64,000 nt of DNA from a virus. The stretch covers positions 1 to 64,000 of IMG/VR virus record IMGVR_UViG_3300022200_000032; one strand, written 5' to 3'. Below are positions 14,986-35,398 of the stretch, piece after piece (the first letter of the stretch is position 1; the number at the start of each line of letters is the position of its first letter). The notes beneath the pieces are model-generated. The model did no database searches, was not told the origin of the DNA, and worked only from the letters and a program-made list of their open reading frames with translations. The translations under genes and the position numbers were made by a program.

Positions 14986-15734
14986 AACGGTTGCATTGAA
15001 AACGGATGTGGGGGCAATTGTTTTCCGGTACAGATTGGATGATCTAGAACATGCAATGCATAAAAGTTAGGGATATTATATATCGAAGACTTTTTGCAGA
15101 TTTTCCTAAATTCATTTTTTTGGTTAAATTCTGTTATGGCCAACTCTTCTCCACAATAATCATTAAACATAAAACTGGTCTCTACGTCATCAAAATATAA
15201 AGGTAGAGCAGGTAGATATTTTGTTGCATCCATTTGAAATAGTGCTAATGCATTTTTTGTACTTGTATATTGATCTAAATCAACACTAACAAACCCCAAC
15301 ACTCTAGAAAAATTCTGGCAGAATTCTGGGATAGTATCATTAACGTCTCCAATCACAAGATTAGCCCGATTGTCAATCTTTTCAAATAATTCGTCAATAT
15401 CAATACGAAAATCTCCAGGTAACCAAAGTTCCGGATGATCTCTATGGTCGACTGGTTTAGGCATTCCACTCCCAACATCAAATCCAGTTATTGTAAAATC
15501 TATATCAAACTCTTTTTTATAGAACTCAGTGTATTCAATTAATGATAACAACCCATTGCCGTTCGCCACTCCTAGCTCGATCACATCTATATGATCTAAA
15601 TCTAGGCACTTTGCTTCCCAGATGCTCATTAACAATCCCAAAGATGTGCTGCGATTTCCGTGAATTCCCAATCCATTTGATCTGATATGACTTGCAATGT
15701 CGCGTATCTTATTCTCAATATTTTTTAGCTGCAT
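14982..15734 (-). CDS. class I SAM-dependent methyltransferase (250 aa)
   Basis: The SAM-binding motif I is IELGVANGNGLLS near residues 52-64, followed by GFDVGSG (motif II region), GDVNDTIP and FVSVDLDQY. This order is typical of a Rossmann-fold O-methyltransferase, possibly near the TylF/CmcI group. The C-terminal PNFYALHVLDHP completes the fold. The start overlaps the carbamoyltransferase end by 10 bases. Substrate unknown; the neighbourhood suggests a sugar. Confidence 0.75.
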   Translation of the reverse strand: MQLKNIENKIRDIASHIRSNGLGIHGNRSTSLGLLMSIWEAKCLDLDHIDVIELGVANGNGLLSLIEYTEFYKKEFDIDFTITGFDVGSGMPKPVDHRDHPELWLPGDFRIDIDELFEKIDNRANLVIGDVNDTIPEFCQNFSRVLGFVSVDLDQYTSTKNALALFQMDATKYLPALPLYFDDVETSFMFNDYCGEELAITEFNQKNEFRKICKKSSIYNIPNFYALHVLDHPICTGKQLPPHPFSMQPF

Positions 15735-17215
15735 ACAGTAACTCCATATTTCTTTTCAAAACGATCAGCATCCTTGCGATCGTTTACCATTGGTTCACCA
15801 CGAATATTTAAACTTGTGTTTAACAACATTGGACAACCTGTTAAATTATACCATGCTTCAAGTAATTTGCGAATACCTGAATTATCTTTAGAAACTGTCT
15901 GCACCCGACTCGTTCCATCAACATGAACAATAGCAGGAAACTCATCTGGACGAGTGCAACGTGCGACTACTTGCATGTAAGGACTATTTTCAAAACCATG
16001 CGGCATATCGAAATATTCATGCACGTATTCTTCTAATATAATAGGAGCAAACGGGCGGAAACGTTGTCTACGCTTAATATCATTTACACGATCTTTAATG
16101 TCTGGGCCTCTTGGATCTGCTAATAAAGATCGTGTACCTAATGCACGAGGGCCAAACTCAGCACGACCGCTTGCTACGCCTACAATTTTGCGAGACAATA
16201 ACTCATCTAACAATTGTTTAACTGGATATTCTCCTGGAATATTGTGTCCTAAAAACGCATCAGTCCAGTTTAACTTTTTACCGTATGCAAGTGCGGCTGT
16301 ACCAAGTGAACTACCGGCGTCACCAGGATTAGGCATAATCCAAATATTATCATAAAAGTTGCCTAAGTTACGATTTGCCAAACAATTAAGTGCAACTCCT
16401 CCCATATATACTAGATTCTTACTAGTACCTAGTTGTCGAGCTTTGCTCATAATATTGTAAATCATTGACTCGGCAATCTCTTGTGTTGAGCAAGCAATGT
16501 TTTCTAAATTAGCACTTTCATCTAAGAATGTACCTGTACCAATGTGCATGTTATGTTTGAATTTTGGTGGATTTATTGTTTCTACAAATTCTTTTAGAAT
16601 TTCGTTTGTGTAATGGGGTTTTCCCCAACCAACCATACCCATTAAAATATATTCTTCGTCCAGTGGGCGCAATCCACAACGTTGTGTAAATGCAGAATAA
16701 AACAGTCCAATACTTTGCGGATAACGCATAGTCCATAGACGTTTATACTTTGCTACACCTTTTTTGTTATATTCTGCGTGCCATATACTAATTGTATCCA
16801 ATTCGCCAATTGCATCAATAACAACTACTGTTGCATCTGTATATGGACTTGTTTGAAATCCCGCTGCTGCATGTGATTTGTGATGTGAGAAATAAGTTAA
16901 ATTGCAATTTAATAAATGGGTGTGTGTTGAAAATTGATCAAGTAATACGTCTCTAATGTTAAAGTGCCATTGTGAAACACGTTCGCCACTGCGGATTTGC
17001 CTTAATTTTTTAAGCCAATGATTTTCATAGTATGCAACAGTGTCAATATCACCATAACTTTCAGCATCATTAAGTATATCGGCACACAGGTTAGCATCGT
17101 GCTTTTGTTTGCTGTAGCGTTCTGAATGGCTAGCGAATAATATATCGCCATTGCGATCAATCACACTTACACCGGCATCATGAAATCCGCAGCTTACACC
17201 TAGTATGTTACCCAT
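15725..17215 (-). CDS. carbamoyltransferase (NodU/CmcH/TobZ family)
   Basis: These enzymes make carbamoyl-adenylate from carbamoyl phosphate and ATP and pass the carbamoyl group to a hydroxyl, often on a sugar. Visible motifs are the N-terminal LGVSCGFHDAGVSVI, the metal-binding SHHKSHAAAGF (His111, His112, His115), VVIDAIGE, and the conserved SGRAEFGPRALGTRSLL in the C-terminal part. Its 496 residues are slightly shorter than many homologues. Carbamoyltransferases of this type are known in marine T4-like phages. It overlaps the methyltransferase and UDP-glucose dehydrogenase-like genes by 10 and 8 bases. Confidence 0.9.
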   Translation of the reverse strand: MGNILGVSCGFHDAGVSVIDRNGDILFASHSERYSKQKHDANLCADILNDAESYGDIDTVAYYENHWLKKLRQIRSGERVSQWHFNIRDVLLDQFSTHTHLLNCNLTYFSHHKSHAAAGFQTSPYTDATVVVIDAIGELDTISIWHAEYNKKGVAKYKRLWTMRYPQSIGLFYSAFTQRCGLRPLDEEYILMGMVGWGKPHYTNEILKEFVETINPPKFKHNMHIGTGTFLDESANLENIACSTQEIAESMIYNIMSKARQLGTSKNLVYMGGVALNCLANRNLGNFYDNIWIMPNPGDAGSSLGTAALAYGKKLNWTDAFLGHNIPGEYPVKQLLDELLSRKIVGVASGRAEFGPRALGTRSLLADPRGPDIKDRVNDIKRRQRFRPFAPIILEEYVHEYFDMPHGFENSPYMQVVARCTRPDEFPAIVHVDGTSRVQTVSKDNSGIRKLLEAWYNLTGCPMLLNTSLNIRGEPMVNDRKDADRFEKKYGVTVCS

Positions 17216-17963
17216 TTCTTACCTTGTTGTTGTATATGCATGCTTGCTCCAACACAGTAAACGGTGCTCCAGCTTCGCGTGCTTGTTTAATCATTGCACG
17301 TGTATCTTTAGGGAAGCAATGTCCTCCCCAGCCACGTTCAGCAGTTACGTGCGAATGATCTGGGCCGATGCGTTCATCTCTACACAAACTATACCGTACA
17401 CTTTCAAAATCTGCACCTACATTTTCACATAGATCATATAGTTGATTAAAGAAACTTACTTTAGTTGCTAAGAAACTATTTTCAGCATATTTAACTAGAC
17501 TTGCTTCAATGTCGGTGATTAAGTGTGCTTCAATATACGGAAATGCTAGTGTCCATATATCAAGCCAAAAATCTTGATTGCCGCCACCTAGAATAACATA
17601 ATCTTGCGTAGCAAAATCTCTGTCTGCTGTTTCAGCGCGAAGAAACTCTGGGCTATATGTGATTTCATGATTGGGAAATTGTTGTTTTAGATCTAGTACG
17701 CCTTTAACATCAACTGCTGATTTAATCACAACCGGAATAGTACTGTCTATGGTTGTTAACACTTGTGCTACATGCGAATAATCGCACGATCCATCAGCAG
17801 CACTTGGTGTGTTAACGCAAATAATAACCCCGTCGACATCGTTATAATCCTCTACGGTTTCTAGTCCAATTTTAGGATCAACAACAATAATGTCCATGTG
17901 CTTGCTAAACTTAGCAGCAACAGCATGCCCAACAAATCCGTATCCTGCGATTGCTATACTCAT
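17208..17963 (-). CDS. UDP-glucose dehydrogenase-like protein, short form (251 aa)
   Basis: This family oxidises UDP-glucose or a similar nucleotide sugar to the uronic acid with two NAD+. The NAD motif GYGFVG is at 7-12, followed by CVNTP, SPEFLRA (104-110), VKYAENSFLATKVSFFN with the catalytic lysine region, and GGHCFPKDT with the catalytic Cys216. Full-length enzymes have about 390-450 residues. Here the protein ends right after the central helix, so the C-terminal UDP-binding domain is missing. It may therefore have relaxed substrate choice or need a partner. It is coupled by ATGA to a 33-codon gene upstream. Confidence 0.82.
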   Translation of the reverse strand: MSIAIAGYGFVGHAVAAKFSKHMDIIVVDPKIGLETVEDYNDVDGVIICVNTPSAADGSCDYSHVAQVLTTIDSTIPVVIKSAVDVKGVLDLKQQFPNHEITYSPEFLRAETADRDFATQDYVILGGGNQDFWLDIWTLAFPYIEAHLITDIEASLVKYAENSFLATKVSFFNQLYDLCENVGADFESVRYSLCRDERIGPDHSHVTAERGWGGHCFPKDTRAMIKQAREAGAPFTVLEQACIYNNKVRNG

Positions 17964-18061
17964 TTGTAGATAAATGGATCGCGCTTACGTAATTCTTTTA
18001 GTTTCTTTCTGTAACGGATTTCGAGTTTAATCTTGTTCCAGAGTCGTTTAAAAATATTCAT
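17960..18061 (-). CDS. very small basic protein (33 aa)
   Basis: A short frame exactly fills the space between two genes. Its ATG at 18061 shares one base with the upstream stop (TAATG) and its stop overlaps the dehydrogenase start (ATGA). The product starts MNIFKRLWNKIKLEIRYRKK and ends LRKRDPFIYK. It is strongly basic, amphipathic and helical. The tight two-sided coupling suggests a real gene, and I have an impression of similar tiny proteins ending RDPFIYK in marine phages. Function unknown. Confidence 0.6.
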   Translation of the reverse strand: MNIFKRLWNKIKLEIRYRKKLKELRKRDPFIYK

Positions 18062-19149
18062 TAATGTTTTCCTATTGCTTCTATCTGTCTTTGCACAAAA
18101 TCTGGATCGCTCCAGTGATAATCATATTCAGCATAAGCATCTGATGTACGAATACTATATACGTCCAAATACTTATAGAGAGTGTTCCAGATATCCTGAT
18201 AATCTGTGCTATTAAAACTTTTTTGTAAATCAACCTGACCGATTTGTGGGTGTCCGATAGTCAGTGTTTTATCATCAGGATCAAATCCATTAACTATTAA
18301 CCACTGTCTAAAATCCTGTAGTTTTTTCTGCATAAATTCGAAATGGCTTGGATCTCTGGCCCATTCAATATCGAAATCACCAGCAGCAAGCGTTTGTCCT
18401 CTGAGGGTGGTTGACACTAGCTCACCAACCCGGGAATCTCTGCCTTCGTCATTAAAAACTTCCCAGTGATGTTTTCCTACTGCCTTGTTGACGCCCACAA
18501 ATACACCACCCAATGGCCTGGAAATGGTATCAATACCAAATAAATCAAAATCATTCTCATCTAGTTCAAATCTGGGTGCATTAATCCAGCACATGAGTTG
18601 ACTGGGACGCATCCATTCAGGCATATGGAATTTTTTGCCGTAACTCAGTGCCCAAGATTCAAATTCATGACATAATAGATTGGTTTGTCTTATATACCAT
18701 CGTTGTTCGTCATTGGCCTTTAACGCATATGGTGATGGTTCTTGTGCAGTTCCCTGAAGTTCTTCAAAATATAAATGCAGTCGATTGAAATGATCGTGAT
18801 CAACCACAATTCTTTCTTTTCCATCATTTTCTGAAATTTCAGTTGTTAGTGAATTGCTTAATGTGAAGTGATCATCAATCTTATATCCAATATTGCTATT
18901 ATTAATATATTCGATTACCTGATTAATTTTGTCAATTAAGAAGTTTCCGTTACGATCACCATCAGCAAACCCAAAAAAGCAATAATTTTTTTCTAAATGT
19001 AGGTTATTGTTCAGTATGTTATTAAATGCATCTAACCATTTACGAGACAGGCTGTTGTCATACACATCAAAAAACACAGAATGGAATTGTCCGGTAGTAT
19101 AATTACGTAATTTTATTTCAACGCTATCTAATATTTTGCCACCACTCAT
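18061..19149 (-). CDS. hypothetical protein (362 aa) next to radical-SAM cluster
   Basis: No family recognised. It is soluble, with no signal peptide or membrane segment. It is rich in aromatic residues and Asp/His (DHDHFNRLHLYFEEL, DFDIEWARDPSHFEF), so metal binding is possible but unproven. It overlaps the radical-SAM gene upstream by 26 bases and the tiny 33-residue gene downstream by 1 base, so it belongs to the island operon. It could be an oxygenase or an adaptor for the radical-SAM enzymes; this is speculation. Confidence 0.6.
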   Translation of the reverse strand: MSGGKILDSVEIKLRNYTTGQFHSVFFDVYDNSLSRKWLDAFNNILNNNLHLEKNYCFFGFADGDRNGNFLIDKINQVIEYINNSNIGYKIDDHFTLSNSLTTEISENDGKERIVVDHDHFNRLHLYFEELQGTAQEPSPYALKANDEQRWYIRQTNLLCHEFESWALSYGKKFHMPEWMRPSQLMCWINAPRFELDENDFDLFGIDTISRPLGGVFVGVNKAVGKHHWEVFNDEGRDSRVGELVSTTLRGQTLAAGDFDIEWARDPSHFEFMQKKLQDFRQWLIVNGFDPDDKTLTIGHPQIGQVDLQKSFNSTDYQDIWNTLYKYLDVYSIRTSDAYAEYDYHWSDPDFVQRQIEAIGKH

Positions 19150-20446
19150 ATATTCTTATATCCTGTTTTAATATTTCGTCCATCGTAATTGGTTGTGATC
19201 TGATGCTTTCCAGAGTTAAAATTCTTTCTTTGCCCTTGCGCATACCATCCGCATATTCATCTATCCACTGCTCTGCAAGTGTGGGCCTATTTAGTAGTTG
19301 TTCTAGAACATCAATCAACGGCTGTTGATGTTTGTCGGCGTGCGGTTTGATCCGTTCTAACACAGAAGAAACATACGGTCCTAATATGTGTCTTGGCAAA
19401 GAGAGAGGACTCATTACAATGTCCGGGCTAAATGCAAAGGTAACCTTTGCAAGTAACTGTGTATTTAATTCCTTAGATAGCCAGAACATATTTTCTAGTT
19501 CAAAAAGTCCTGGCAATGTTAAAGTAAAGTCCAGTCGCATCTGACGGTCATTGGTTTGTATTGCTTGCGCATCTTTGTAATTTTGCAGCCATTGATCCCA
19601 CTTTAGTCCTGTACGAATATATTCTCCAACTTTGCCTGTGCCATCAATACTTGCACAAATTTGCCAATCACGCAAATGTGCCAAAATATCTGTGTATAAG
19701 TTCAGCCCTTTGTAGTCAACTTGAGATAAGTTTGTGTTATAACGTGCATATACACGATGACCTTGGTTTAATTCTACAATGCGTTGCATTACACGCCAAT
19801 GTTCTTCAAACATAAGTGGCTCGCCGCCCACCCAGTATATTTCTTCTACACGGTTTTCTTCAACGGCATCATATAACTCCTGTGCGGCAGTTTCGGTCTG
19901 GAATTGTTGAATTTGTTTTTTGATATCTGGCTTCATCCAGTTGTTTTTGGGGTCATTCCAGTTAATCATATTGTGCTTGCGTTGTTCTGATTCCCAAGAA
20001 CTAGAAAGCATATCTCCACACATACGGCATTTGAAGTTACACAAATTAGATATACGATAGTCCCAGGAAACAGGACGCATTGTGGTGTGACCCGATTCGT
20101 CTGTGGTTTCCCAGATACGATCGTAATGATGAGATGTTAAATGCCAAAAATAACTACGATACACGTCTGTGTTCAATAACTTATGATTGCATACCTGACA
20201 TTCATCAGGTATTTCTCCATTCATCATCTGAACACGCACATCACGTATCTGTTTAGAGTTCCAGTGTTCTTCAAGTGTGCGTGGTTTGTAATCACCAGTG
20301 CCTGATTCAATATCAATATATTGTGTAAAGTTTTGTGCGGGTTCTCTGGATGCACAACAGAGACGGCGCTCTGTTTGTGGCGATAGATATGTGTGCGTCC
20401 AAGGCGCCATACACAGGAATTCTGGTTTTGTATCAGGCTTTCTCAT
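19124..20446 (-). CDS. radical SAM protein with N-terminal twitch domain (440 aa)
   Basis: The radical-SAM cluster motif is C-x3-C-x2-C at Cys136, Cys140 and Cys143 (NLCNFKCRMCG), followed by WVGGEPLM, the SAM-binding glycine motif. An auxiliary Fe-S half-domain lies in front of the core, with Cys12 in LCMAPW, Cys30-Cys31 and Cys83/Cys86. Twitch and SPASM domains usually follow the core, so this is the permuted (N-terminal) arrangement. It is first in homology with 20433, 21635 and 22596. Overlaps of 14 and 26 bases bind it into the operon. Substrate unknown; small-molecule or peptide modification are both possible. Confidence 0.85.
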   Translation of the reverse strand: MRKPDTKPEFLCMAPWTHTYLSPQTERRLCCASREPAQNFTQYIDIESGTGDYKPRTLEEHWNSKQIRDVRVQMMNGEIPDECQVCNHKLLNTDVYRSYFWHLTSHHYDRIWETTDESGHTTMRPVSWDYRISNLCNFKCRMCGDMLSSSWESEQRKHNMINWNDPKNNWMKPDIKKQIQQFQTETAAQELYDAVEENRVEEIYWVGGEPLMFEEHWRVMQRIVELNQGHRVYARYNTNLSQVDYKGLNLYTDILAHLRDWQICASIDGTGKVGEYIRTGLKWDQWLQNYKDAQAIQTNDRQMRLDFTLTLPGLFELENMFWLSKELNTQLLAKVTFAFSPDIVMSPLSLPRHILGPYVSSVLERIKPHADKHQQPLIDVLEQLLNRPTLAEQWIDEYADGMRKGKERILTLESIRSQPITMDEILKQDIRIYEWWQNIR

Positions 20447-21638
20447 ACAAGCAATCTGCTAACTCCGGCAAGTAATCGTGCATAGACTGCCCTCTACGTT
20501 TATCCATACGCAGACTATCTTTGCGCAGAACTTCTGGATCAGTATCCTTGCTATTCATAAAAAACGCAATTTGTTTAAATTCTTTATAGTGACTAGAATT
20601 TACATTGGCACTTAAAAGTCTTTCTGTTGCACGTAGTTTTGCTGTTTTTGGTAGACTTGTAATACAATGCTGCGGTGCGTCATGCAACATGTTCCAATAT
20701 ACAAAGTCAAACCCTTGTATATCAATCCAATTAGCAAGTTCTTCTAAATACATTACATTAAAGACATTAACAGTAGAACAGACTTGTAATGTTATATTGT
20801 CTGAACGCTCACGCAGCTTTTTAAATTGGTCTAAGTTTTTATTAACTGTCTTCCAATCTGCACCATAACGTTGATATTCAAAACGTCTTCCTAGATCATC
20901 GATTGAAAGTGCGATCTCAACATGTTTAAAATGCTTCCAGACTTCGTGCTCTTCTGGAAACAACGTACCATTTGTGTTGTAATGAATTTCAATGTCTTTA
21001 GCATATCCTTCGTCAACTAATCGTTGTAAGTAATCAAAATGAGGTCCGATCATAAATGGTTCGCCGCCAGTGAATTCCAAGTAACGAATATTCTCTGAAT
21101 TGTTGGCAAGACTATCCCAAAATGTTAAACTATTTTTAGGCCAAGCACCTTTGCGATTCATTGTGTAAGCAAAACTTTCTTTGCGTTTTGCCACAGGCAG
21201 TTCTTTTAGTTCTTCGCCAGCGTAAGTTGAAGAACTCCACGATCCGCAAATGCGGCAAGCGATGTTACAAATGTTTCCTAATTTTAAATCTAGAAACTTT
21301 AGAGGTTTAGGATGAGTGGACCACTCTGTTTCTTCTTTAAGTATATCCTTTAATCTGTCTAACGTATGCATACGCTTAGACGTTCTGTTGGCGTCCTCTT
21401 CTGCCCAGCAACGTCGGCATTCTGCAGGCTGTTTACCTTCTAAAAATGCGGTTCGCAATTGATACATATACTCAGAATTTTGTACTTCTGTTAAATTAGT
21501 TTTAGTTAAATCAAACTTAACAGATTGGCTGTCAACTACCTCTCCATCATACATACAACACGGGCGTACAGTTCCAATCGGGCTAGTTTCTAAACTAATC
21601 CAAGGCAATATGCAAAATTTGTTATGTGGTAGATTCAT
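20433..21638 (-). CDS. radical SAM protein with N-terminal twitch domain (401 aa)
   Basis: The radical-SAM motif is Cys124-x3-Cys128-x2-Cys131 (NICNIACRICG) and the SAM motif is EFTGGEPFM. The N-terminal auxiliary cluster cysteines are Cys9 (FCILPW), Cys27-28 and Cys74/Cys77. I chose the ATG at 21638 because it overlaps the previous stop as ATGA and has AGGTG upstream; an ATG at 21674 has no ribosome binding site. It shares a phrase-by-phrase layout with the degenerate protein at 21635-22603, including LDLK before the cysteine motif and VWKHFKHV, and is probably its closest relative. Confidence 0.85.
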   Translation of the reverse strand: MNLPHNKFCILPWISLETSPIGTVRPCCMYDGEVVDSQSVKFDLTKTNLTEVQNSEYMYQLRTAFLEGKQPAECRRCWAEEDANRTSKRMHTLDRLKDILKEETEWSTHPKPLKFLDLKLGNICNIACRICGSWSSSTYAGEELKELPVAKRKESFAYTMNRKGAWPKNSLTFWDSLANNSENIRYLEFTGGEPFMIGPHFDYLQRLVDEGYAKDIEIHYNTNGTLFPEEHEVWKHFKHVEIALSIDDLGRRFEYQRYGADWKTVNKNLDQFKKLRERSDNITLQVCSTVNVFNVMYLEELANWIDIQGFDFVYWNMLHDAPQHCITSLPKTAKLRATERLLSANVNSSHYKEFKQIAFFMNSKDTDPEVLRKDSLRMDKRRGQSMHDYLPELADCLYEKA

Positions 21639-22603
21639 GGTTTCGCACCTATTATTTCTTTGAAATAAATCCATAGAGATTTTTCTTCATCTGATAGACT
21701 TTCTACTCTATTATAAACAATCTTGACATCAGACGCAATGCCCAATTGAATTATTTTTTTAATAATATCAATATTGCCATGTCCTCTAAATTCGATAACC
21801 CGAACATGATCCAGATGTCCATTCAGATATTCATCCCAGTTAACCTTTTCGTGATATTTTAAATCCAAAATATGCAATTGGTTTTTTTCTTTGGTCCATC
21901 GAGATCCCAATAATATATCTTCATACGTTACTACACTATCCAGAGTATCTGATCGTTTGCTTGGCTTACCATTTTGCTCATCATCCCAACATTTTGAACA
22001 CGCGATCGGTTTTTTGCCTTGTACAAATTGTTGTCTTAAATTCATCATATAATCTGAATCTAAAACTTCATTTAAAGAATGCTCATGTATATTAAAATTC
22101 CCAATGGTATCATTGGATCCGCAGCAAACCTGAAATTTTCCATCCCTGGTGATCACTATACCAATCCAAGGAAAAACGCAAAACGCATCACTGTTAGGGA
22201 AATTGTATTTGTCGTGGCAGTGTAATGTCTTTTTTTGTAAAGGATGGCCCGATACAATCTTGTTATCTTTAAAATAATTCATTGGCGTCGGATCATAACT
22301 AATCACACGTGTAACATCAATAATTTCCTGTGCGATGTTAGCACTGTTGCTTACTATTATCACAAAACAATTACTTATATCTGCTATGTTTAGTGCTTCT
22401 TGTATTCTGGACAAATGATCACCATAATCAGATATTTCATATTTTTCTTCTGGTATGAAAAACACTAACCTGTCGGTAGGACCATAATAATCTTTGCGGC
22501 TTTGTTTAACAATAGAATTCAAACGTCTAATATTTGCATCAACAACACAGGCAAAAACAACATTATAATCTTCGCTGATATGTTTGAGTACGTTATTATT
22601 CAT
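21635..22603 (-). CDS. degenerate radical SAM paralogue lacking the C-x3-C-x2-C motif (322 aa)
   Basis: The N-terminal twitch cysteines are intact: Cys142 in FCVFPW, Cys160-161 and Cys202/Cys205. After LDLK at 247-249, however, the catalytic cysteine segment and about 80 residues are missing, and the sequence resumes as VRVIEFRGHG. Other members have EFTGGEP there. The C-terminal end (SDVKIVYNRVESLSDEEKSLW) still aligns with the 20433 protein. The frame is open throughout, so it is not simply decayed. A preceding domain (about 60-110, with DISNCFVII and ISYDPTP) is shared with the 22596 protein. I infer a non-catalytic scaffold, carrier or regulatory subunit. Confidence 0.75.
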   Translation of the reverse strand: MNNNVLKHISEDYNVVFACVVDANIRRLNSIVKQSRKDYYGPTDRLVFFIPEEKYEISDYGDHLSRIQEALNIADISNCFVIIVSNSANIAQEIIDVTRVISYDPTPMNYFKDNKIVSGHPLQKKTLHCHDKYNFPNSDAFCVFPWIGIVITRDGKFQVCCGSNDTIGNFNIHEHSLNEVLDSDYMMNLRQQFVQGKKPIACSKCWDDEQNGKPSKRSDTLDSVVTYEDILLGSRWTKEKNQLHILDLKYHEKVNWDEYLNGHLDHVRVIEFRGHGNIDIIKKIIQLGIASDVKIVYNRVESLSDEEKSLWIYFKEIIGAKP

Positions 22604-24257
22604 TTAACAATAATGCCTCTAACTCAGGAATATGATCTAAAATATTTTCTTTACGTATGACATCCAGTTGATGTGTTTTATCCCAAAACTTTTGTAACAA
22701 ATAAGTTTTATCACACGATAGCATGTTTATTGCTGACATGAATCCATTGGTTGCCCTACGTAAATGATCATTAGGCTCTAACCATTCCAGATGTGCCACG
22801 AACGATTTTCTTATTTTTTCTTTATATGCAGGAGTAGCAATATCAATTCGGTAGAACAGAGGATCTTGCAAAATGTTAACATTAAAATCTTGTGGCTTAA
22901 TAAATCCTTTTTCTACCCAATTTTTATGAAAATCTGTGATGTGTAATGCATTCATAATGCTTAATGTAGGACTAACATAAAAATCTACATGGGGACACAT
23001 TTCCATCATTAATTGTCTATTCTGTTCTACATCTTGCCACTTTGTTCCTGAACGAATATATTCTGCATGTTTTCCCATTCCATCAAGACTTGCACCGACA
23101 GCAACGTTCGAAAAATGTTGCCATTGTTCAAACGCATGCTTGTCTTTGAGTTTGACTTGTGTGAAATTTGTATTATATATTAACCTAACATCAGTCATAT
23201 TGCGTTTAATAAGTTCGTCAAGTATAATATAATGTTCTTCCATGACCAGAGGCTCGCCTCCCGCAAAATAAATCTGTTCTACGCAATCAATATGTTCTAA
23301 CAATTGTTCGAGCATGTCTGTCTCGTAACGACCAGCATATACTTTTGGTTTATTATTGCTTGCCCATTCTGGACCTGCCAAAAGGGCTTGATCCTTGTAC
23401 CATTGACTACTGAAAATATGACCACAGCTACGGCATTTCAAATTACACAAATTACTAAATCGTATATCCCAATATGCCAGTTCAAATTTCTCGTACGTTC
23501 CATCTGGTTGTGTTTCTAAAACACGTTCGATTAGATGTCCGTGATGCTTATTTGCACTCTGTCTTCCAGAAAAGAAGCCATAACCCTCTTCTTCATAACA
23601 TCTGGAGCAAGCAACACTTTCTTTATCACGTAACATGTTCAAACGTAATTCTTTCATTGCGTTTGAATTCCAAATTTCCTCCAGTGTATTGTCTCTGCAA
23701 TTTCCTACTGTTCCTGCTGGGTCTGCCATACAACATGGCATGGCCTCTCCAGTTGGATAAGCATGTAAATGAATCCAAGGATATATGCAAAATACTTTGC
23801 TATCAGTAAGTAAATATTTTTCTTTATCAGAAATATTTTCAAGTGAAATTTTCAAAGGATTGATTGATCCATATGCGTATGCTTCTTTTTTACTAGATGG
23901 ATGCAGTTGTAAAATTTTTCTTTCAAAATCACCATCTACAATTTTGTAAGAAATTGGCACTGGATCATGACTAATTTGTTGTAATAATGTTAATTCATGT
24001 GCAATATGTGTATTTGTTGATTCTATTATGACGAACGCATTGCTGATATCAACTTCGTTAAGAATTGTTTGTATATTACGCAACACTAGTCCAAGATTAG
24101 ACTTTTTAACATACATATCCCCAGTATGTTTCAAAATAATTCTTTCTTCAGGCTGGTATACTTCTTTGTAAATTTCTCGCAATTGTTGTTCAAATTTTTG
24201 CTGGGAACGTTGGTATGTTTCGTTCATCCAATAACTCAACTCAATTTCATAAATCAT
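22596..24257 (-). CDS. radical SAM protein with extra N-terminal domain and twitch (553 aa)
   Basis: Domain order is an N-terminal module of about 105 residues (with DISNAFVII and ISHDPVP) shared only with the 21635 protein. The twitch cysteines follow (Cys157, Cys175-176, Cys217/Cys220). The core then has Cys271-x3-Cys275-x2-Cys278 (NLCNLKCRSCG) and FAGGEPLVM. I start at 24257 (MIYEIELSYW), because GGAG lies 9 bases upstream and the overlap with the preceding gene is 11 bases; the frame extends to a TTG at 24281. The downstream overlap is 8 bases. The shared N-terminal module suggests that it works as a pair with the degenerate paralogue. Confidence 0.83.
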   Translation of the reverse strand: MIYEIELSYWMNETYQRSQQKFEQQLREIYKEVYQPEERIILKHTGDMYVKKSNLGLVLRNIQTILNEVDISNAFVIIESTNTHIAHELTLLQQISHDPVPISYKIVDGDFERKILQLHPSSKKEAYAYGSINPLKISLENISDKEKYLLTDSKVFCIYPWIHLHAYPTGEAMPCCMADPAGTVGNCRDNTLEEIWNSNAMKELRLNMLRDKESVACSRCYEEEGYGFFSGRQSANKHHGHLIERVLETQPDGTYEKFELAYWDIRFSNLCNLKCRSCGHIFSSQWYKDQALLAGPEWASNNKPKVYAGRYETDMLEQLLEHIDCVEQIYFAGGEPLVMEEHYIILDELIKRNMTDVRLIYNTNFTQVKLKDKHAFEQWQHFSNVAVGASLDGMGKHAEYIRSGTKWQDVEQNRQLMMEMCPHVDFYVSPTLSIMNALHITDFHKNWVEKGFIKPQDFNVNILQDPLFYRIDIATPAYKEKIRKSFVAHLEWLEPNDHLRRATNGFMSAINMLSCDKTYLLQKFWDKTHQLDVIRKENILDHIPELEALLLNE

Positions 24258-25605
24258 TATACCATGCTCCAATGTGTGCAAATGTATCAGTTATACTCTT
24301 TCCACGTCGACGATCATACTGTGCATAAAATTTCTTAAAATCGTTGTGTAATGCTGACATATCAAATGTGTCCGAATGCGGTGTCTTAACTACATCCAGA
24401 TAATCAATTAACCGCTGTACTTGGTTAATTTCCATTTCGTGCAACAGTATGTTTTTATATGCGTGTTCTTCTAACCAAGTGTCTAATTTATCTGCATAAT
24501 CCATACGTAGATCTTCTGGCAACACCAACGGTGACTGAAAACTCGGAAAACGTAATATGTTTAATGTGAAAGTTGGATAATTTTTTCCGTATTGCTTTTT
24601 TAATTCTAACATCCAATCCAAAAACTCAGTCAATGATTCTAAACACAACGCATTAATAGTACACATAACATGAAATCCATTTACGCTACCTTCTGTAATA
24701 ACACGATGTACGTTACGCTCCCATTGTTCCCAATTTAACCCATCACGTATATATTCTGCATGAGCACTCATGCTTTCTTGCGACGTGTATAACTGGAAAT
24801 CTTTAATGTTGTGACTTGCTTCAATTAACTTATCAATCTTTTCATCTTCGATTCCAAGATTAGAGTTAAGTGCAAACGACACTTCTGATTCATTATTAAT
24901 ATACCAATCAATGAGTCGCATAGTATGCGGGCTCATCATTGGCTCGCCACCAGTTAATCGTAATTCTTGTAACGTTTTATGTAAGTCCGATTCCCACCAT
25001 TTAAAGAATGCTTCTACGTAGGGATTTTCTTCTTTGGGTTTAAACAACTGTGCTGAATCGTGTGTGTGGGTGAAATGGTTACGCCCATCTGATATTAGAT
25101 CTGTGTAAGGTCCGTTCTTTTTCAAATCCGTTACCCAACTTGTACTGAATGCTGGATTGCAGTATGAACACGAAAATTGACACGTCCTGTCAAATGCAAT
25201 TTCTAATGTTTTTAAGTCAATATCTGTTTCAGGATTTGCTGCCATTGCTGTAACAACATCCCACTCATCGTAGATCACAGTTTTATAAACACGATCTGAA
25301 ATGTTGTCGCGGCCGATATCTTCAATTTTCCAGCAATATTCACAACCCGCCGGACGTTCTGAATGCTGCATCATACGGCGTTCATCTTTCTTTTTGCGTG
25401 TATTGTGTAGCGCCTTCGGATTAGCAGTTACTTCATCAACACTCACATGATGCGGAAGTGGATGATGACAACTCGTGGTCATACCAGATCCTAACCAAAT
25501 GGTAGCATTATACCATTTAGCCGCACAAAAACTTGTACTGAACTCATCTATCCATTTTTTAATTTCAAGATCCGTTTCTCGACCTGGTTTACGCAATTTA
25601 CTCAT
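24247..25605 (-). CDS. radical SAM protein, second twitch subfamily (452 aa)
   Basis: The core motif is Cys142-x3-Cys146-x2-Cys149 (RTCQFSCSYCN) and the SAM motif is RLTGGEPMM. The N-terminal auxiliary cysteines Cys27 (FCAAKW), Cys46 (SCHHP) and Cys88/Cys91 are followed by WKIED. Together with the 25615 protein it forms a distinct subfamily: FCxAKW, a GM-x2-SC-x-HP segment and a single Cys where the others have Cys-Cys. It ends RRGKSITDTF, like RRGQSMHDYL of the 20433 protein. The start is 9 bases after the upstream gene. Confidence 0.85.
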   Translation of the reverse strand: MSKLRKPGRETDLEIKKWIDEFSTSFCAAKWYNATIWLGSGMTTSCHHPLPHHVSVDEVTANPKALHNTRKKKDERRMMQHSERPAGCEYCWKIEDIGRDNISDRVYKTVIYDEWDVVTAMAANPETDIDLKTLEIAFDRTCQFSCSYCNPAFSTSWVTDLKKNGPYTDLISDGRNHFTHTHDSAQLFKPKEENPYVEAFFKWWESDLHKTLQELRLTGGEPMMSPHTMRLIDWYINNESEVSFALNSNLGIEDEKIDKLIEASHNIKDFQLYTSQESMSAHAEYIRDGLNWEQWERNVHRVITEGSVNGFHVMCTINALCLESLTEFLDWMLELKKQYGKNYPTFTLNILRFPSFQSPLVLPEDLRMDYADKLDTWLEEHAYKNILLHEMEINQVQRLIDYLDVVKTPHSDTFDMSALHNDFKKFYAQYDRRRGKSITDTFAHIGAWYNDL

Positions 25606-25614
25606 ATGTTTTAC

Positions 25615-27036
25615 TTAATTAGACTGTGATTGTTGTGCAAAATATTTGCACTCGTTCCACCAGGTAGACATTTCTGGAAAAGTTTTCAAAAAATTAAACT
25701 CGTGTCGTCTGTCGTATTCGTTGAAGAAACGATAAAAATCTGCCTTATTTTGTTCTAGATTTTCAGCAGGCTGGCGCATCCATGCGATATCTCTATCCAT
25801 TCGATTAATTTCGTAATCTTTAAACCCTTTAAACCGTGTATCTGGAGTTTCACAATGCTCGATCATCCAGGTCATCAATTCTTCCAATCTATCTGCATAC
25901 ATATCTGGGAGTAAACGCATACTTTGCCAATTGGGCGTGTGTAATACAGGGGTATCAAACCACACACGCTGATATGTGTCTGAGTAAACCTGCCTTAATC
26001 CGTGTATAGCAGGAATGAGTTTATCCAGACTGGTAATCGATAAGTTATTCATAGTGATGATAAACGTTAGACTACTTCTATACGGTACTTCTGTTAAAAA
26101 TTGATTAACCCGATCCCACATTAAATCAAAATTTAGCCCTGCTCGCATATATTCTGCTTGCTTTCCGAATCCGTCAAGTGACACGTACTGCATAAAATGC
26201 TCAACATTTTCGCCATCATTGCAAATACGCTTAACATAATCTAGATACTTGTTCCATAGTTTCTGTTCTACAGATAAGTTAGATGTCACGTTAATATGCA
26301 AGTCAGGTTTTGGATTTTCTAATACATAATCAAATACGCGATATGTATTTTTATCCATTAAAGGTTCGCCACCAGTCATACGGAAGTGTTTTAGGTCTTT
26401 ATATAATTCTGGCCACCATTCCCAGAATGCTTCTACATACGGGTTATATTCAGAATGCGGAATAGGTCTACGGTCGCCTTGGAAATAAGCAGGATCGTTG
26501 TGCGGTTGGCTTGTAGGATAGGCGCCATATTCTTTTGCTTGACGCATCCACGAGCTGCTAAATTGAGGTGAACAATAACTACACTCTAAATTACAAGCAG
26601 AGTTGAAGTTCACTTCAACATACGCAGGATTAGTGTCTGCCATTGGGTCAGACACAACCTCATCAAACTTTTCAATAGCCCACGGTTCTCCCGAACGGTA
26701 GTGTCTATCAGAAAGTTTTCCGTTGTCTTCCATTGCCCAGCAATAAAAGCACTCCTCGGGTCTCCTCCCCTCCATCATGTGTTTGCGTTGTAGTTTTTTA
26801 TAATCGGTGTTATGCAACTTACTGGGATTTCCAGTAAGTTCATCTACAGGAATTTTATGCAATGGCGGATGATAACATGAGTTATTCATGCCATTAGTTA
26901 GATGTAATGAAACTTGTTTCCATTTAGCCAAACAAAAGCTCGGACTCACAGTATCTAGCTTTTGTTGTGCTATTTCAGCATCAGATAAGAACTTTGATTT
27001 AAAATCCTTGTCTACCTCATCACCTTTGTTTTGCAT
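25615..27036 (-). CDS. radical SAM protein, second twitch subfamily (473 aa)
   Basis: The core motif is Cys148-x3-Cys152-x2-Cys155 (SACNLECSYCS) and the SAM motif is RMTGGEPLM. Twitch cysteines are Cys35 (FCLAKW), Cys54 (SCYHP) and Cys96/Cys99. It is a tandem paralogue of the 24247 protein, with the shared phrases PVDELTGNP and LHNT at matching places. It begins 9 bases after the amidinotransferase stop, with no clear ribosome binding site, so coupled translation is likely. It is the promoter-proximal member of the six-gene radical-SAM array. Confidence 0.85.
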   Translation of the reverse strand: MQNKGDEVDKDFKSKFLSDAEIAQQKLDTVSPSFCLAKWKQVSLHLTNGMNNSCYHPPLHKIPVDELTGNPSKLHNTDYKKLQRKHMMEGRRPEECFYCWAMEDNGKLSDRHYRSGEPWAIEKFDEVVSDPMADTNPAYVEVNFNSACNLECSYCSPQFSSSWMRQAKEYGAYPTSQPHNDPAYFQGDRRPIPHSEYNPYVEAFWEWWPELYKDLKHFRMTGGEPLMDKNTYRVFDYVLENPKPDLHINVTSNLSVEQKLWNKYLDYVKRICNDGENVEHFMQYVSLDGFGKQAEYMRAGLNFDLMWDRVNQFLTEVPYRSSLTFIITMNNLSITSLDKLIPAIHGLRQVYSDTYQRVWFDTPVLHTPNWQSMRLLPDMYADRLEELMTWMIEHCETPDTRFKGFKDYEINRMDRDIAWMRQPAENLEQNKADFYRFFNEYDRRHEFNFLKTFPEMSTWWNECKYFAQQSQSN

Positions 27037-27045
27037 AATGGTATA

Positions 27046-28209
27046 TCAGAGATATTTGTTGGGGCCTGATCCATCACGATGTAAATCATTCGTAATACAG
27101 TGAATACCAGCATCCCAAAAATATTTGTGTCTAAATGGCGATACATGGACCTCAACTCCGTGTCTTGCGCATGCCTCTTCAACTTGGTCATTATGTGCTG
27201 ATACAATTACATTCTTTTGATCTATCACTAGCATGTTTACATCAAATACAGTTTCATGTACTTCCCCAACCCATTCATCAAAATAATGGTCTACCATTGC
27301 TGTCATGTTAGGATCTTTTTCAAAACCTGGAAAGAACCAACGACCTTTATTGCGCTTCATTGAAAATTCAAATTCACGCATATGAGCGTAATTTGAATCT
27401 GGCAAATATACAACTTCCCAATCTGGGAAGGTATCTTTATATGTTGGAATATCATGTAAACTAATAATTAAACCAGGTGTTACTGGACAATATACAGCGT
27501 CACCGTGACCACCTGCATTTACGATCTTATTAGTGGTATTAGGGAAATACTCGTTAACCTGATCGAGCAATGTTTTCTTATCATCATGAAATGTTTGTGT
27601 TGCAAACATCAAGTCTTGTCCCAGTCGGCTAACAAAGCATCCATTGATAAAATCTAGATCAGTATACTCAATAGTATTACTGTTATTTCTTAAATCATCA
27701 AAAATATGATCATAGAATTTTAATTTGGCATCCAGATGATTCTGATCAAATTTTTGAAATTGTTCAAATTTCGCACGGACTTCATCAGCAAATTGTGGCC
27801 AGTCATTATAGAAATCTAATGGACGAACATAATCTGGCCAGTATTCTTGTTTATTTTGTCTGTAAAAAACTGACCAGGCATGACTGCCATTGGGTATTTT
27901 GGGTACCCAAAATTTGTCCCCAATCATGATAAAGTAATCACGAGGTGCGGTCGGTGGCTGCACCCACTTACCATCAATATAAAGTTCATTCATATTTTCT
28001 GGAAATTCTGGACGCACAGTTCGTACACCGAACTTGCCTTCTAGTAATTTAATTAAGTTTTGGTAATCTTCTTCTGTTTCTTCTGCTAATTTTTCAAAAA
28101 TACCCCGTGTTTGGGTATTTTCAATCCAAGAATAAAACTCTGGTGGGTAAGTCTTCCCTACCATGCAATATTTCAAAGGATCCCAGTGTTGATATACTGA
28201 ATATGACAT
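27046..28209 (-). CDS. amidinotransferase family enzyme, second copy (387 aa)
   Basis: It is a paralogue of the 13933 protein with the same landmarks: HWDPLKYCMVGK at the N-terminus, GGHGDAVY with His235, FDVNMLVIDQKNV, and FWDAGIHCITND with the nucleophile Cys371. It keeps the classical His-Cys pair at the active cysteine, where the other copy has Ser-Cys. It also carries an insertion of about 40 residues before the His motif. Its start overlaps the stop of a possible 18-residue gene (TAATG). It leads directly into the radical-SAM array, suggesting that guanidinylation and radical chemistry act on one product. Confidence 0.85.
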   Translation of the reverse strand: MSYSVYQHWDPLKYCMVGKTYPPEFYSWIENTQTRGIFEKLAEETEEDYQNLIKLLEGKFGVRTVRPEFPENMNELYIDGKWVQPPTAPRDYFIMIGDKFWVPKIPNGSHAWSVFYRQNKQEYWPDYVRPLDFYNDWPQFADEVRAKFEQFQKFDQNHLDAKLKFYDHIFDDLRNNSNTIEYTDLDFINGCFVSRLGQDLMFATQTFHDDKKTLLDQVNEYFPNTTNKIVNAGGHGDAVYCPVTPGLIISLHDIPTYKDTFPDWEVVYLPDSNYAHMREFEFSMKRNKGRWFFPGFEKDPNMTAMVDHYFDEWVGEVHETVFDVNMLVIDQKNVIVSAHNDQVEEACARHGVEVHVSPFRHKYFWDAGIHCITNDLHRDGSGPNKYL

Positions 28210-28286: not shown

Positions 28287-29201
28287 TCAATGGATAACAT
28301 CTATTTCGCGCACAGTGGCGCCCATGTTGTACCAGTTACTACGATAATGGTGTTTGAAGAATTTACTTGTTGTTTCGTCCATATACATAACAGGCAAGTC
28401 TAAACGTTCTTGCAATGCATGTCCATAATATTCGCTTTGTTCTGCAATTTGATCTGTGTGTACTTGTTCGTCGAAAATACGCTCTAAATTGTCAAACCAC
28501 TGTACTTCAGTATGATCCCAATCCGAAAGCATAGTCATGCACGTTCCCATTCTTGCGCCAAGAATGGCATATTCGCCAAACTCTACATCACGACCAACGT
28601 TCTGCCATACCGTTAAATGATCCATGTTACGCTTGTGAACAGCATCTTTAAATTCTGTTTCTGTTGGTTTGCGTCCGCGGTCTAAACACATTTTAACACC
28701 TTCTCTAAAGCCTGCTCTCCAAGCATGAAATGCTGATCCATTTGGGTATGTTGTAGAATAACAGTCGTGCATTGGCCAATACAATGGATCAAAACAAAAC
28801 TCAACATTTGTATCAGCAGAACCGTCAGATGCTTCGTGAGTTTTCATATTCATAATAAACTCACGTGTCCAGCAACTTAGTCCACCGTTACCGTACATGA
28901 GTCCATTAATATGATTAACTGCCCTCCAACGAAATACAGCTTTCTCATATTCAGGTGTTTTCATTTCCAATTGCAGATTGAAAAATTCTGGGTTTGGCAA
29001 ATTGTCACCATCAATAAGCACAAAACGTTCTGTTGTGCTTGCTTCTGCTGCTGCTTTGTGTGCTGCATCTGATCCTTTTACTCCGTCAACACGAACTGCC
29101 CAGGGCACCATGTTTTTAATTTTTACCCAAAATTCTTCTTTCTGTGGCTCGTCATAGCTCAGGTATACGACGTCCAAATCGGCGATATCAATCAAGTTCA
29201 T
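28287..29201 (-). CDS. GT-A-like glycosyltransferase candidate (304 aa)
   Basis: The N-terminal part (LDVVYLSYDEP, RVDGVKGSDAAHKAA, RFVLIDGDNLPN) has the strand order of nucleotide-sugar transferases, with DGD at 64-66 as the likely metal-binding DxD. The segment VNHINGLMYGNGGLSCW and HAWRAGFREG match those of the 9588 protein. I start at 29201 because it is an ATG overlapping the upstream gene by 14 bases; the frame extends to a TTG at 29246. It is a probable catalytic counterpart of the degenerate C-terminal domain in the 9588 gene product. Confidence 0.65.
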   Translation of the reverse strand: MNLIDIADLDVVYLSYDEPQKEEFWVKIKNMVPWAVRVDGVKGSDAAHKAAAEASTTERFVLIDGDNLPNPEFFNLQLEMKTPEYEKAVFRWRAVNHINGLMYGNGGLSCWTREFIMNMKTHEASDGSADTNVEFCFDPLYWPMHDCYSTTYPNGSAFHAWRAGFREGVKMCLDRGRKPTETEFKDAVHKRNMDHLTVWQNVGRDVEFGEYAILGARMGTCMTMLSDWDHTEVQWFDNLERIFDEQVHTDQIAEQSEYYGHALQERLDLPVMYMDETTSKFFKHHYRSNWYNMGATVREIDVIH

Positions 29202-29526
29202 ATGTTTTGTTCTTCCAGTATATTGATTTAGTTGTGTTTGATACAATGGTCACATCTTTGGGATGTGTTGGAAAACCACTGTCTCCAGGAACCAGTTTTC
29301 CAATCGATTCGTGTCTGATATACACAATCTTGTTATTTTTTATGCAGATGTCATATCGAGATTCATTATATGTTTTTTTATCAATCACAATGTACACTCC
29401 CGGTTCGTCTTGTGTAGTATAAAATAAAGGAGTCCCAGATTGATCATCATAATACAAGCGATATTCTAATTCAATCAGCTTCTGATTTTGATCAACCTGA
29501 TCGAGTGCTTCCCAAAAGTGTGTCAT
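29188..29526 (-). CDS. conserved hypothetical phage protein (112 aa)
   Basis: This is a beta-rich small protein (ELEYRLYYDDQSGTPLFY, EPGVYIVIDKKTYN, KNNKIVYI). I recognise the pattern from T4-like marine phages, without a known role. There is no signal peptide or membrane segment. It overlaps the upstream glycosyltransferase-like gene by 35 bases and the downstream one by 14, so it is part of the same operon. Confidence 0.7.
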   Translation of the reverse strand: MTHFWEALDQVDQNQKLIELEYRLYYDDQSGTPLFYTTQDEPGVYIVIDKKTYNESRYDICIKNNKIVYIRHESIGKLVPGDSGFPTHPKDVTIVSNTTKSIYWKNKTYELD

Positions 29527-30328
29527 AATGTTTGTTTACTATTTTACTAAATTCTTTAATATTATAATGGAACGGATATTCTTGGTCAACTGTGTTAATT
29601 CTGATATTGGAACCATCTAATTCCCAAATTAATTCTCGTGTCCAATCTTCTTGTAGTAATCCATTAATTTTTCCCTTCATGTGAATTAAACTTGGGTAAC
29701 TGACTGATGGTGGTAATGTTACATTTTCCACACCAATAATTTGCGCAGCAAGTGCATATACAACATCGGTTGTTCCTGGATCATCACTTCCACCTTTGAT
29801 TGTTGCTTGAAAAGCTGGCCAATTTTCAAAAATATTTCTGACTAAATTAAAGAACTGTTGTGCTGTTCTACTTAGGCGCCAATAAGTAATGGCGTTATAA
29901 ACATCAGGTAAACCATTTAAATCAAATATTTTACGATAATGTCGCATATTTGACCGCTGATTCAAATAATTGCGTGCGCCTGTTGTTAATACAACGTCTT
30001 TGTGCTCAAACATTGTCCACCAGTGCCAGATACTATGCGGAATAATCATATCTGCTTCCAGCTTAATTGTTTGCCTAAATGGACTCGCCGTAAAAATTTG
30101 CCAATCATTTTTAAGTTTCCACTGGCTATCTGATGCCTGATCTCCATATGGCAATGGCTTTACAAAGTCAAATACTGGATCAGTAACTTCAGATGAAGTT
30201 ACCAAGCACACTTTTGCTTGCGGAGTATGATACTTTAGAGAACGTGCCAGAGCGCGAGCGCAGTCAATATAATCAACTTCGCTTGTATTTTCTGCCACAA
30301 TCAAATAGCCGCGTTCTGCTTCAACCAT
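29492..30328 (-). CDS. GT-A/GT8-like glycosyltransferase candidate (278 aa)
   Basis: It starts with GYLIVAENTSEVDYIDCARALARSL, like the first strand and helix of GT8-type enzymes. RQTIKLEADMIIP follows, whose EAD (91-93) is at the place of the metal-binding DxD. Its downstream HYRKIFDLNGLPDVYNA and YWRLSRTAQQFF match the layout of the next gene upstream (ATVIFFRKTEFAKTIF). The two are therefore probable paralogues. GGAG lies about 10 bases upstream of the ATG. Donor and acceptor unknown. Confidence 0.65.
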   Translation of the reverse strand: MVEAERGYLIVAENTSEVDYIDCARALARSLKYHTPQAKVCLVTSSEVTDPVFDFVKPLPYGDQASDSQWKLKNDWQIFTASPFRQTIKLEADMIIPHSIWHWWTMFEHKDVVLTTGARNYLNQRSNMRHYRKIFDLNGLPDVYNAITYWRLSRTAQQFFNLVRNIFENWPAFQATIKGGSDDPGTTDVVYALAAQIIGVENVTLPPSVSYPSLIHMKGKINGLLQEDWTRELIWELDGSNIRINTVDQEYPFHYNIKEFSKIVNKHYDTLLGSTRSG

Positions 30329-31142
30329 TTATCATCTTCTCCAGTGAAAACTTGTTTAAAAAATGTATATCATGATCATCAACTACGATGCGCACAGGAC
30401 GTTCGATATGATTTTTATACTTAACATATTCTATCTCAAACTTACGAGCATCTAACTGGTTAATCTCTGCATTATCACTAATCATTGGCATATTCCAGGG
30501 AATTTCGGGAATAGCATTGATGCGGTGTCCGTAAACAATGCCTAATGCAATGCTTACAACATAGTCATTTCTAAACGGACTTGACCTAAACTTGTAGATA
30601 CGTGAATAATGTGCATAATTCTCACGTATCATTTTAATTGTATCAAATATTGTTTTAGCGAACTCTGTTTTTCTAAAGAAGATAACGGTTGCCCAGTAAT
30701 GTGGGAAATAATATTTAGGTAAAAAGTCGTATGGTTGGAAACTTTTTCTATCTGTAATATCGTATGGTTTACGATGTACTAAAAAATCTTCAGGAGATTC
30801 AAATAGAGCAAGTAGCTGTTCGCTATTAACAATATAATCTGAATCGATAACAACAGTTTCGTCATATGGAGTCAAGTCAAATGCTTGGAAACGATTAACA
30901 TTCTTCCATTCAGCAACGTTTCCATCTTTGTGTATATTAAAATTACGTTGATGTCCTGCTAGTGCTTCTGTTAAAATTAAATTGTGTTTGACGTTTTCTT
31001 TTGTGCTAGCACTTGCTTCATCGGTAACAATACTTGTTGGCAATTTTAAGATAGATTCAATGCGGTCAGCAATCCACAAAGCATGTCCTAAATAATCAAT
31101 CACTTCATTGTTAAACGCAAATATTAAAAAACCACGAGTCAT
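30321..31142 (-). CDS. GT-A/GT8-like glycosyltransferase candidate (273 aa)
   Basis: RGFLIFAFNNEVIDYLGHALW opens the protein, and ETVVIDSDYIV supplies a canonical DSD metal-binding motif at residues 100-102. This resembles GT8-like or related nucleotide-sugar transferases and the 29492 protein. It overlaps its upstream neighbour by 4 bases (ATGA) and its downstream one by 8. The intact DxD makes it the better candidate of the pair for catalysis. Confidence 0.7.
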   Translation of the reverse strand: MTRGFLIFAFNNEVIDYLGHALWIADRIESILKLPTSIVTDEASASTKENVKHNLILTEALAGHQRNFNIHKDGNVAEWKNVNRFQAFDLTPYDETVVIDSDYIVNSEQLLALFESPEDFLVHRKPYDITDRKSFQPYDFLPKYYFPHYWATVIFFRKTEFAKTIFDTIKMIRENYAHYSRIYKFRSSPFRNDYVVSIALGIVYGHRINAIPEIPWNMPMISDNAEINQLDARKFEIEYVKYKNHIERPVRIVVDDHDIHFLNKFSLEKMING

Positions 31143-35359: not shown

Positions 35360-35398
35360 TTTCTTTTCTTGTTGTGCGTTTGTTTTTTGCATTTTTAT

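Follow-up and report, generated by a model that had tools for sequence, protein, structure and literature searches.

A fixed-order array of five N-twitch radical SAM enzymes beside tail-fibre and glycosyltransferase-like genes in aquatic phages

Radical S-adenosylmethionine (SAM) enzymes with an N-terminal twitch domain form the named family NF033640 (N_Twi_rSAM), whose entry describes single proteins. The enzyme family and the many radical SAM genes of marine T4-like phages are already published (PMC5332604, PMC7029224). For the T4-like TARA_ERS488813_N000010, 12 radical SAM genes are given as a count with regard to iron-sulphur metabolism (PMC5332604). Pelagimyophages carry a glycosyltransferase-rich host-recognition region near the tail genes, and these regions differ by radical SAM cassettes (PMC7029224), and the variable polysaccharide-modification clusters of jumbo phages and cyanophages hold glycosyltransferases, epimerases, nucleotidyltransferases and carbamoyltransferases (PMC7824862). 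In Vibrio phages K566/K567, the island VPK566_0302-0314 was inferred to have taken the place of an ancestral anti-defence island. Among its genes a glycosyltransferase and a lipid A gene are named, and its radical SAM genes are not discussed in the available passages (PMC12028318). Here we describe a run of NF033640 genes in the virus record IMGVR_UViG_3300022200_000032. We analysed positions 1 to 64,000 of this 77,855-base record and call this whole stretch of 64,000 nucleotides the window. The record has T4-type baseplate genes, so the label "phage" holds, and the gp6-like baseplate protein of the window has its closest relatives in very large T4-like phages, e.g. Sinorhizobium phage Phosso and Agrobacterium phage Atu_ph07.

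A preliminary description of this DNA had claimed six consecutive radical SAM family genes, and six minus-strand open reading frames (ORFs) were found exactly at 19124-27036:

25615-27036, minus strand: R6, N_Twi radical SAM enzyme, array position 1; CLAKW...SCYHPP...CxxC, CNLECSYC and GGEP; NF033640 325 bits
24247-25605, minus strand: R5, N_Twi radical SAM enzyme, position 2; CAAKW...SCHHPL; NF033640 299.5 bits
22596-24281, minus strand: R4, N_Twi radical SAM enzyme, position 3, with an extra N-terminal domain; NF033640 387.6 bits
21635-22603, minus strand: R3, core-deleted paralogue, extra N-terminal domain and twitch only; NF033640 83.2 bits
20433-21674, minus strand: R2, N_Twi radical SAM enzyme, position 4; NF033640 338.9 bits
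19124-20446, minus strand: R1, N_Twi radical SAM enzyme, position 5; CMAPWT...CCASRE; NF033640 290.6 bits

From R6 to the following gene at 18061-19149 the layout is one co-directional, tightly packed run. Gaps of 9 bp separate R6 from its upstream gene and from R5, and all further genes overlap as called (R5/R4 by 35, R4/R3 by 8, R3/R2 by 40, R2/R1 by 14 and R1/18061 by 26 bp). R4 and R2 likely start later than their longest ORFs, with in-frame ATG codons near 24257 and 21638, respectively.

The five proteins R1, R2, R4, R5 and R6 match NF033640 near full-length (290.6-387.6 bits; curated cut-off 170 bits), while none of 14 control genomes had a match over the cut-off. R3 matches profile positions 1-118 only and stays below the cut-off. 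Judged by these matches, all six genes belong to one named family, R3 as a twitch fragment and not as a working member. The N-terminal cysteines that had been described as common are there, four in all six proteins, and in the six-way alignment C12, W16, C31, C83 and C86 of R1 are among the columns without variation. C-x3-C-x2-C and GGEP occur in five proteins, just as claimed; R3 has neither, since its core is deleted. The motifs are not due to chance, because the four twitch and three SAM-cluster cysteines are invariant in 247 non-redundant homologues, except in one truncated and one divergent row. GGEP shows a few D-for-E or S-for-P changes in the same set. The six-way alignment held no stretch conserved enough for a collection scan. 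The Pfam radical SAM family PF04055 exceeds its gathering score in R1, R2 and R5 and falls just below it in R4 and R6, and the Pfam SPASM family is over its cut-off in R1, R2, R3 and R4, not in R5 and R6. We rejected R3 as a sixth enzyme, since its catalytic core is missing, and on sequence the best count is five complete enzymes and one core-deleted paralogue. The nearest relatives of R3 are R2-type proteins with the N-terminal domain. The extra domain of R4 has about 160 amino acids (aa) and is found in some of its orthologues only.

With a profile made from 52 relatives, the N-terminal domain aligned with the C-terminal twitch of BtrN (E = 1e-6), which supports its earlier assignment as an auxiliary cluster domain. 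BtrN is a 2-deoxy-scyllo-inosamine dehydrogenase, i.e. an aminocyclitol dehydrogenase, and about 73 twitch residues align with cysteines at matching places. The second ligand position is C-C in R4, R2 and R1, whereas in R5 and R6 it is S-C, one residue after the BtrN cysteine in the ungapped alignment. The core of the same profile aligned with viperin, SkfB and anSME. The domain order is indeed reversed: the twitch is C-terminal in BtrN and N-terminal in the array enzymes, where it precedes the core, contrary to the canonical SPASM/twitch order with the auxiliary domain C-terminal to the core. Its novelty did not stand, since an N-terminal twitch is the defining trait of NF033640. The AlphaFold2 model of R4 (mean predicted local distance difference test score, pLDDT, 94.0) resembled several radical SAM structures in Foldseek, among them GDGT-MAS, anSME, viperin, BlsE, a sactisynthase and SuiB. 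Low template modelling scores probably reflect the permutation, which allows an in-order alignment of only part of the protein. A viperin-like antiviral enzyme (NF038283) was rejected, with a best score of 35.7 bits (R2) against a cut-off of 180.

With R6 as the query we obtained 80 viral loci, and these, further loci and the window gave 376 family ORFs; R1 alone as the query found no relative in genome contigs. In a tree of 247 representatives the window genes fell into separate groups, two of them poorly supported, and the complete order R6-R5-R4-R2-R1 recurred. Monophyly was tested on 110 proteins from 22 non-redundant complete arrays of uncultivated aquatic T4-like and jumbo phages, labelled by position alone, with a fresh alignment and tree. 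These arrays were chosen for showing the full order in the first tree, which biases the number of complete arrays as an estimate of frequency. Each position was monophyletic, with ultrafast bootstrap (UFBoot) values of 100 for R6, 99 for R5, 99 for R4, 100 for R2 and 100 for R1. Positions 1 and 2 part from 3, 4 and 5 with UFBoot 100, in line with the two subfamilies described before, R6 and R5 (C-x2-KW, SC-x-HP) versus R4, R2 and R1 (C-x2-PW, CC). All 110 proteins are spaced identically in the first half of their twitch domain. What follows the second cysteine depends on the array position (SCYHPP in 22/22 at position 1, SCHHP at position 2 and CCASRE in 22/22 at position 5). Orthologues have median identities of about 49-63%, and paralogues inside the window share 19-33%. 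The ratio of nonsynonymous to synonymous divergence (dN/dS) had medians of 0.055-0.098 across the five positions, which means strong purifying selection, with the caveat that dS was near or above 1 in many pairs. A recent tandem duplication was rejected, as every position forms its own clade, and the phylogeny that had been proposed as a check gave separate position clades and not unrelated recent acquisitions. The position clades, the fixed order and the purifying selection together argue that these sequences are five ancient, specialised enzymes, not recent duplicates.

The selection data also bear on the idea that the array merely hitch-hikes with a lineage, as a decaying or selfish gene island without a single function. 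The lost core of R3 and the frequent gene insertions and losses in the region would fit such an island. Against this, the low dN/dS in all five groups and the near-invariant catalytic residues in 247 proteins weigh strongly, and we consider hitch-hiking very improbable.

Several genes around the array recur together with it. Their frequencies were counted over 58 loci; the locus searches were seeded by exact peptide words and returned mostly one lineage. The genes are:

18061-19149, minus strand: partner protein, 362 aa, overlapping the end of R1
28287-29246, minus strand: glycosyltransferase family 2 (GT2)-like gene; Pfam Glyco_tranf_2_3, weak, E 0.009; 43/58 loci
29188-29526, minus strand: small conserved protein, 112 aa, between the glycosyltransferase-like genes; 32/58 loci
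29492-30328 and 30321-31142, minus strand: two paralogous family 8 (GT8)-like genes; 43/58 loci, 86 copies, mostly paired
32065-33054, minus strand: virion/tail-fibre region gene; 44/58 loci
33196-34677, minus strand: virion/tail-fibre region gene; 41/58 loci; match to a PHROG tail fibre family
34733-35392, minus strand: virion/tail-fibre region gene; 36/58 loci
15725-17215, minus strand: NodU-type carbamoyltransferase; Pfam PF16861/PF02543; family in 13/58 loci
17208-17963, minus strand: UDP-glucose/GDP-mannose dehydrogenase; Pfam PF00984/PF03721

A search for conserved partners near homologues had been proposed, and the partner protein, glycosyltransferase-like genes and fibre genes proved to recur. 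The partner protein is tightly coupled to the family. With it alone as the query, 79 of 80 loci contained N_Twi radical SAM genes, and in 77 of 80 it directly follows or overlaps a family gene. Its model is confident (pLDDT 90.3), and yet it gave no PDB fold match at E<=0.001, no PDB sequence match, no Pfam or NCBIfam family, only insignificant PHROG matches and no tblastn match among phage records. The fold matches only uncharacterised phage proteins. One of them is A0A2L0UZJ4 of Atu_ph07, which we compared with AUZ94948, a protein of the same length (300 aa) that adjoins a radical SAM gene; the hhalign E-value of 0.09 is too weak to link them. The invariant residues H125, H161, E162 and E164 of the partner protein suggest a metal or active site.

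The usual order upstream of the array is fibre-region genes, a small protein, two GT8-like genes, a small protein, a GT2-like gene and R6, so that the GT2-like gene lies directly 5' of R6 in most relatives. Among 79 loci found by the GT2-like gene, 72 hold radical SAM genes, and of the remaining seven most break off shortly behind the glycosyltransferase gene. A second phage group has a different set of glycosyltransferase-like genes before R6. Downstream of the array, the carbamoyltransferase and the dehydrogenase (15725-17963) are sugar genes. In other phages, the genes inserted between the enzymes include those for a sugar epimerase and a cytidylyltransferase, for MetK and an MTAN-type nucleosidase, and for SGNH-like proteins and a B12-binding radical SAM protein. 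MetK lies in or beside the array in 2/58 loci and a phosphorylase-superfamily nucleosidase (MTAN type) in 5/58. These two would supply SAM and clear 5'-deoxyadenosine, which fits the needs of such enzymes. The same gene block was found in contigs binned into Pelagibacter, Verrucomicrobia and other metagenome-assembled genomes (L091-L094), and these look like phage contigs.

Outside this lineage, tblastn over 50,697 phage records gave matches in Vibrio phages K566/K567 only. Two of the five NF033640-like genes of K566 exceed the cut-off. Two GT8 genes (above the Pfam cut-off) and a GT4-like gene are interspersed among four of the five, and the fifth is nearby. The island VPK566_0302-0314 resembles the array in having family genes among GT8- and GT4-like genes, but its members are far more divergent (about 24% identity), lie on mixed strands and have no orthologous order. 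No homologue of the partner protein was found in K566 by sequence. The published jumbo phage and pelagimyophage clusters share with the array region a content of sugar and glycosyltransferase-like genes, but the accessible text describes neither a fixed five-gene N_Twi array nor the partner (PMC7824862, PMC7029224). TARA_ERS488813_N000010 has many radical SAM genes, like the records of 316-328 kb in our set (8 to 16 family matches apiece), and no array, orthology or function is assigned to them in the passages available (PMC5332604). Nor does the NF033640 entry include the ordered five-gene array, the partner protein or the fibre and glycosyltransferase setting. The fixed five-gene array, its orthology and the partner protein are new in the sense that no description was found in the open-licence literature searched.

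Since glycosyltransferase-like and sugar genes are associated with the enzymes in two phage groups and in K566, we favour a conserved cassette of five radical tailoring enzymes as part of a phage glycosylation module, and give this about an even chance of being right. Each enzyme would reduce SAM at its C-x3-C-x2-C [4Fe-4S] cluster to give a 5'-deoxyadenosyl radical, which would abstract one hydrogen from the substrate, and the twitch cluster would bind the substrate or accept an electron, as in BtrN. The substrate would most likely be a sugar that the adjacent glycosyltransferases and sugar enzymes handle, either nucleotide-linked, lipid-linked or already on its acceptor. Different reactions (dehydrogenation, epimerisation, deoxygenation or C-C/C-S bond formation) would fall to R6/R5 and to R4/R2/R1. 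The fixed order, the joint retention and the one glycosylation/tail-fibre setting favour successive or complementary steps over parallel specificities. The product would decorate the tail fibres of the phage itself or the surface polysaccharide of the infected host and would thereby alter adsorption, superinfection or host recognition. We infer the radical chemistry in vivo, the sugar substrate, the fibre or host-surface target and the sequential action alike.

Some observations weigh against such a glycan cassette. The glycosyltransferase calls on the window proteins are weak: comparison of the GT8-like proteins with the K566 GT8 proteins gave an hhalign E of 0.0003 with a probability of just 41%, and profile searches against the PDB gave nothing significant. 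Part of the synteny with the tail-fibre genes may reflect common descent in a single phage lineage. The amidinotransferase gene beside R6 (27046-28209) was rejected as a member of the system and is a passenger, as only 11/80 of its relatives lie near radical SAM genes. Bacterial family members often stand alone or in other settings (e.g. in Paenibacillus), and since the chromosomal settings vary, family membership alone implies no sugar chemistry. In eight bacterial genomes we found 1-4 members over the NF033640 cut-off each, in varied settings, which makes a single substrate for the whole family improbable.

Two of these chromosomal settings were noted by eye. In Paenibacillus sp. an N_Twi enzyme (L122, about 10004-11296) is flanked by acyl-carrier-like and ketosynthase-like genes, a hint that its substrate may be bound to a carrier. 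In four loci (L139, L150, L151, L161) N_Twi genes are near PqqD-like and nucleotidyltransferase-like genes, a possible peptide-modifying setting in Hyphomicrobiales and relatives.

The sugar genes of the window can be read differently. Together with a DegT aminotransferase, the carbamoyltransferase and the UDP-sugar genes resemble secondary-metabolite sets, and the enzymes might make a diffusible small molecule (aminoglycoside-like, a modified nucleotide or another metabolite) that acts in the host, e.g. in anti-defence or as an antimicrobial. A metabolite/decoration cluster with a carbamoyltransferase was proposed in jumbo cyanophages (PMC7824862), and the K566 island is reported to have replaced an anti-defence island (PMC12028318). 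The tightest association of the array is, however, with glycosyltransferase-like and fibre genes, not with the carbamoyltransferase (13/58) or the amidinotransferase (11/80), and the viperin-type matches are far below their cut-off (35.7 vs 180 bits). We regard a diffusible product as improbable.

Phages also use glycosyltransferases on modified DNA bases, and the radical enzymes could act with them in the hypermodification of the phage genome. The window does have a thymidylate synthase-like gene (6520-7404), but we take the PFNI motif of its protein to mark dUMP enzymes and not a dCMP hydroxymethylase. Moreover, the array sits with tail genes, not with replication genes, which makes a role in DNA modification hard to believe.

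The fibre genes lead to a further comparison. Atu_ph07 has homologues of the proteins at 33196 and 34733 and of the giant structural protein of the window, and the first two adjoin the giant structural gene there. In the slot after these genes Atu_ph07 has a cupin-like protein, three radical SAM/SPASM enzymes and a protein ending in CHSSCHASCHNSRSRR. This homologous slot lacks the glycosyltransferases and N_Twi enzymes and holds a different radical SAM/SPASM system. Because fibre genes adjoin the array and because of this parallel, the array enzymes could be protein maturases which introduce radical modifications (thioethers, C-C bonds or epimerised residues) into the adjacent tail-fibre proteins, with the glycosyltransferases glycosylating the same proteins. 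The Foldseek matches of R4 include the peptide modifiers anSME, sactisynthase and SuiB, in agreement with this. On the other hand, we found no precursor of a ribosomally synthesised and post-translationally modified peptide and no Cys-rich or repeated tail when we looked at fibre proteins and small conserved genes of N_Twi phages; five records of such phages lack the CHxxCHxxCH pattern, and the sequence match of the auxiliary domain is BtrN, a small-molecule enzyme. Protein maturation is in our view rather unlikely.

Returning to the glycan cassette, we suggest tentatively, with somewhat more doubt than belief, a multi-step radical SAM assembly line in which five non-interchangeable N-twitch enzymes and a new-fold partner build an unprecedented fibre or host-surface decoration. 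The slot after the fibre genes would then be a repeated home for at least two kinds of radical SAM systems, the N_Twi arrays and the CHxS-tail/SPASM system in Atu_ph07. Radical SAM enzymes are costly, oxygen-sensitive and SAM-hungry. For a virus that maintains five to sixteen such genes under strong purifying selection, the benefit of the product must therefore be large. If this product modifies the virion or the host surface, whether by a glycan or on a protein, it would add a new level to the chemistry between phage and host, and the enzymes would be a source of novel radical catalysts. The fixed order offers a ready-made orthologous enzyme set for reconstitution, and related systems are testable because K566 (Vibrio) and Atu_ph07 (Agrobacterium C58) are cultured.

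The tailed protein of Atu_ph07 (AUZ94952, L419:26119-27009) is one of a set of phage proteins of 172-306 aa that end exactly in a CHxSCHxSCHxSR(G/S)RR-type tail. They adjoin a radical SAM/SPASM gene in 41 of 45 loci, usually at 0-16 bp and often with a cupin gene. Cultured examples are Agrobacterium, Sinorhizobium, Burkholderia and Pseudomonas phages. Such a locus looks like a system for a radical-SAM-modified phage protein. Three of the tailed proteins were tested and had no NCBIfam match, and no description of the system was found in the searched literature.

Some further genes of the record were noted. The giant structural protein (35416-50559) has 5,047 aa and is a homologue of a T4-like structural protein of Atu_ph07 (13,350-bp coding sequence). 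The window has two amidinotransferase-like paralogues, 27046-28209 and 13933-14985, of which the first was missed by Pfam; its nearest PDB entries are HsvA and inosamine-phosphate amidinotransferase. Such proteins are widespread in aquatic phages, mostly far from the array. An S-adenosylmethionine decarboxylase (32-325; PHROG E 9e-33) is a further SAM-using gene of this phage. Outside the window, at about 67,000-68,700 of the record, lies a seventh radical SAM protein of about 584 aa, in which a radical SAM core and a SPASM-like Cys region are, by eye, apparently fused to a short-chain dehydrogenase domain.

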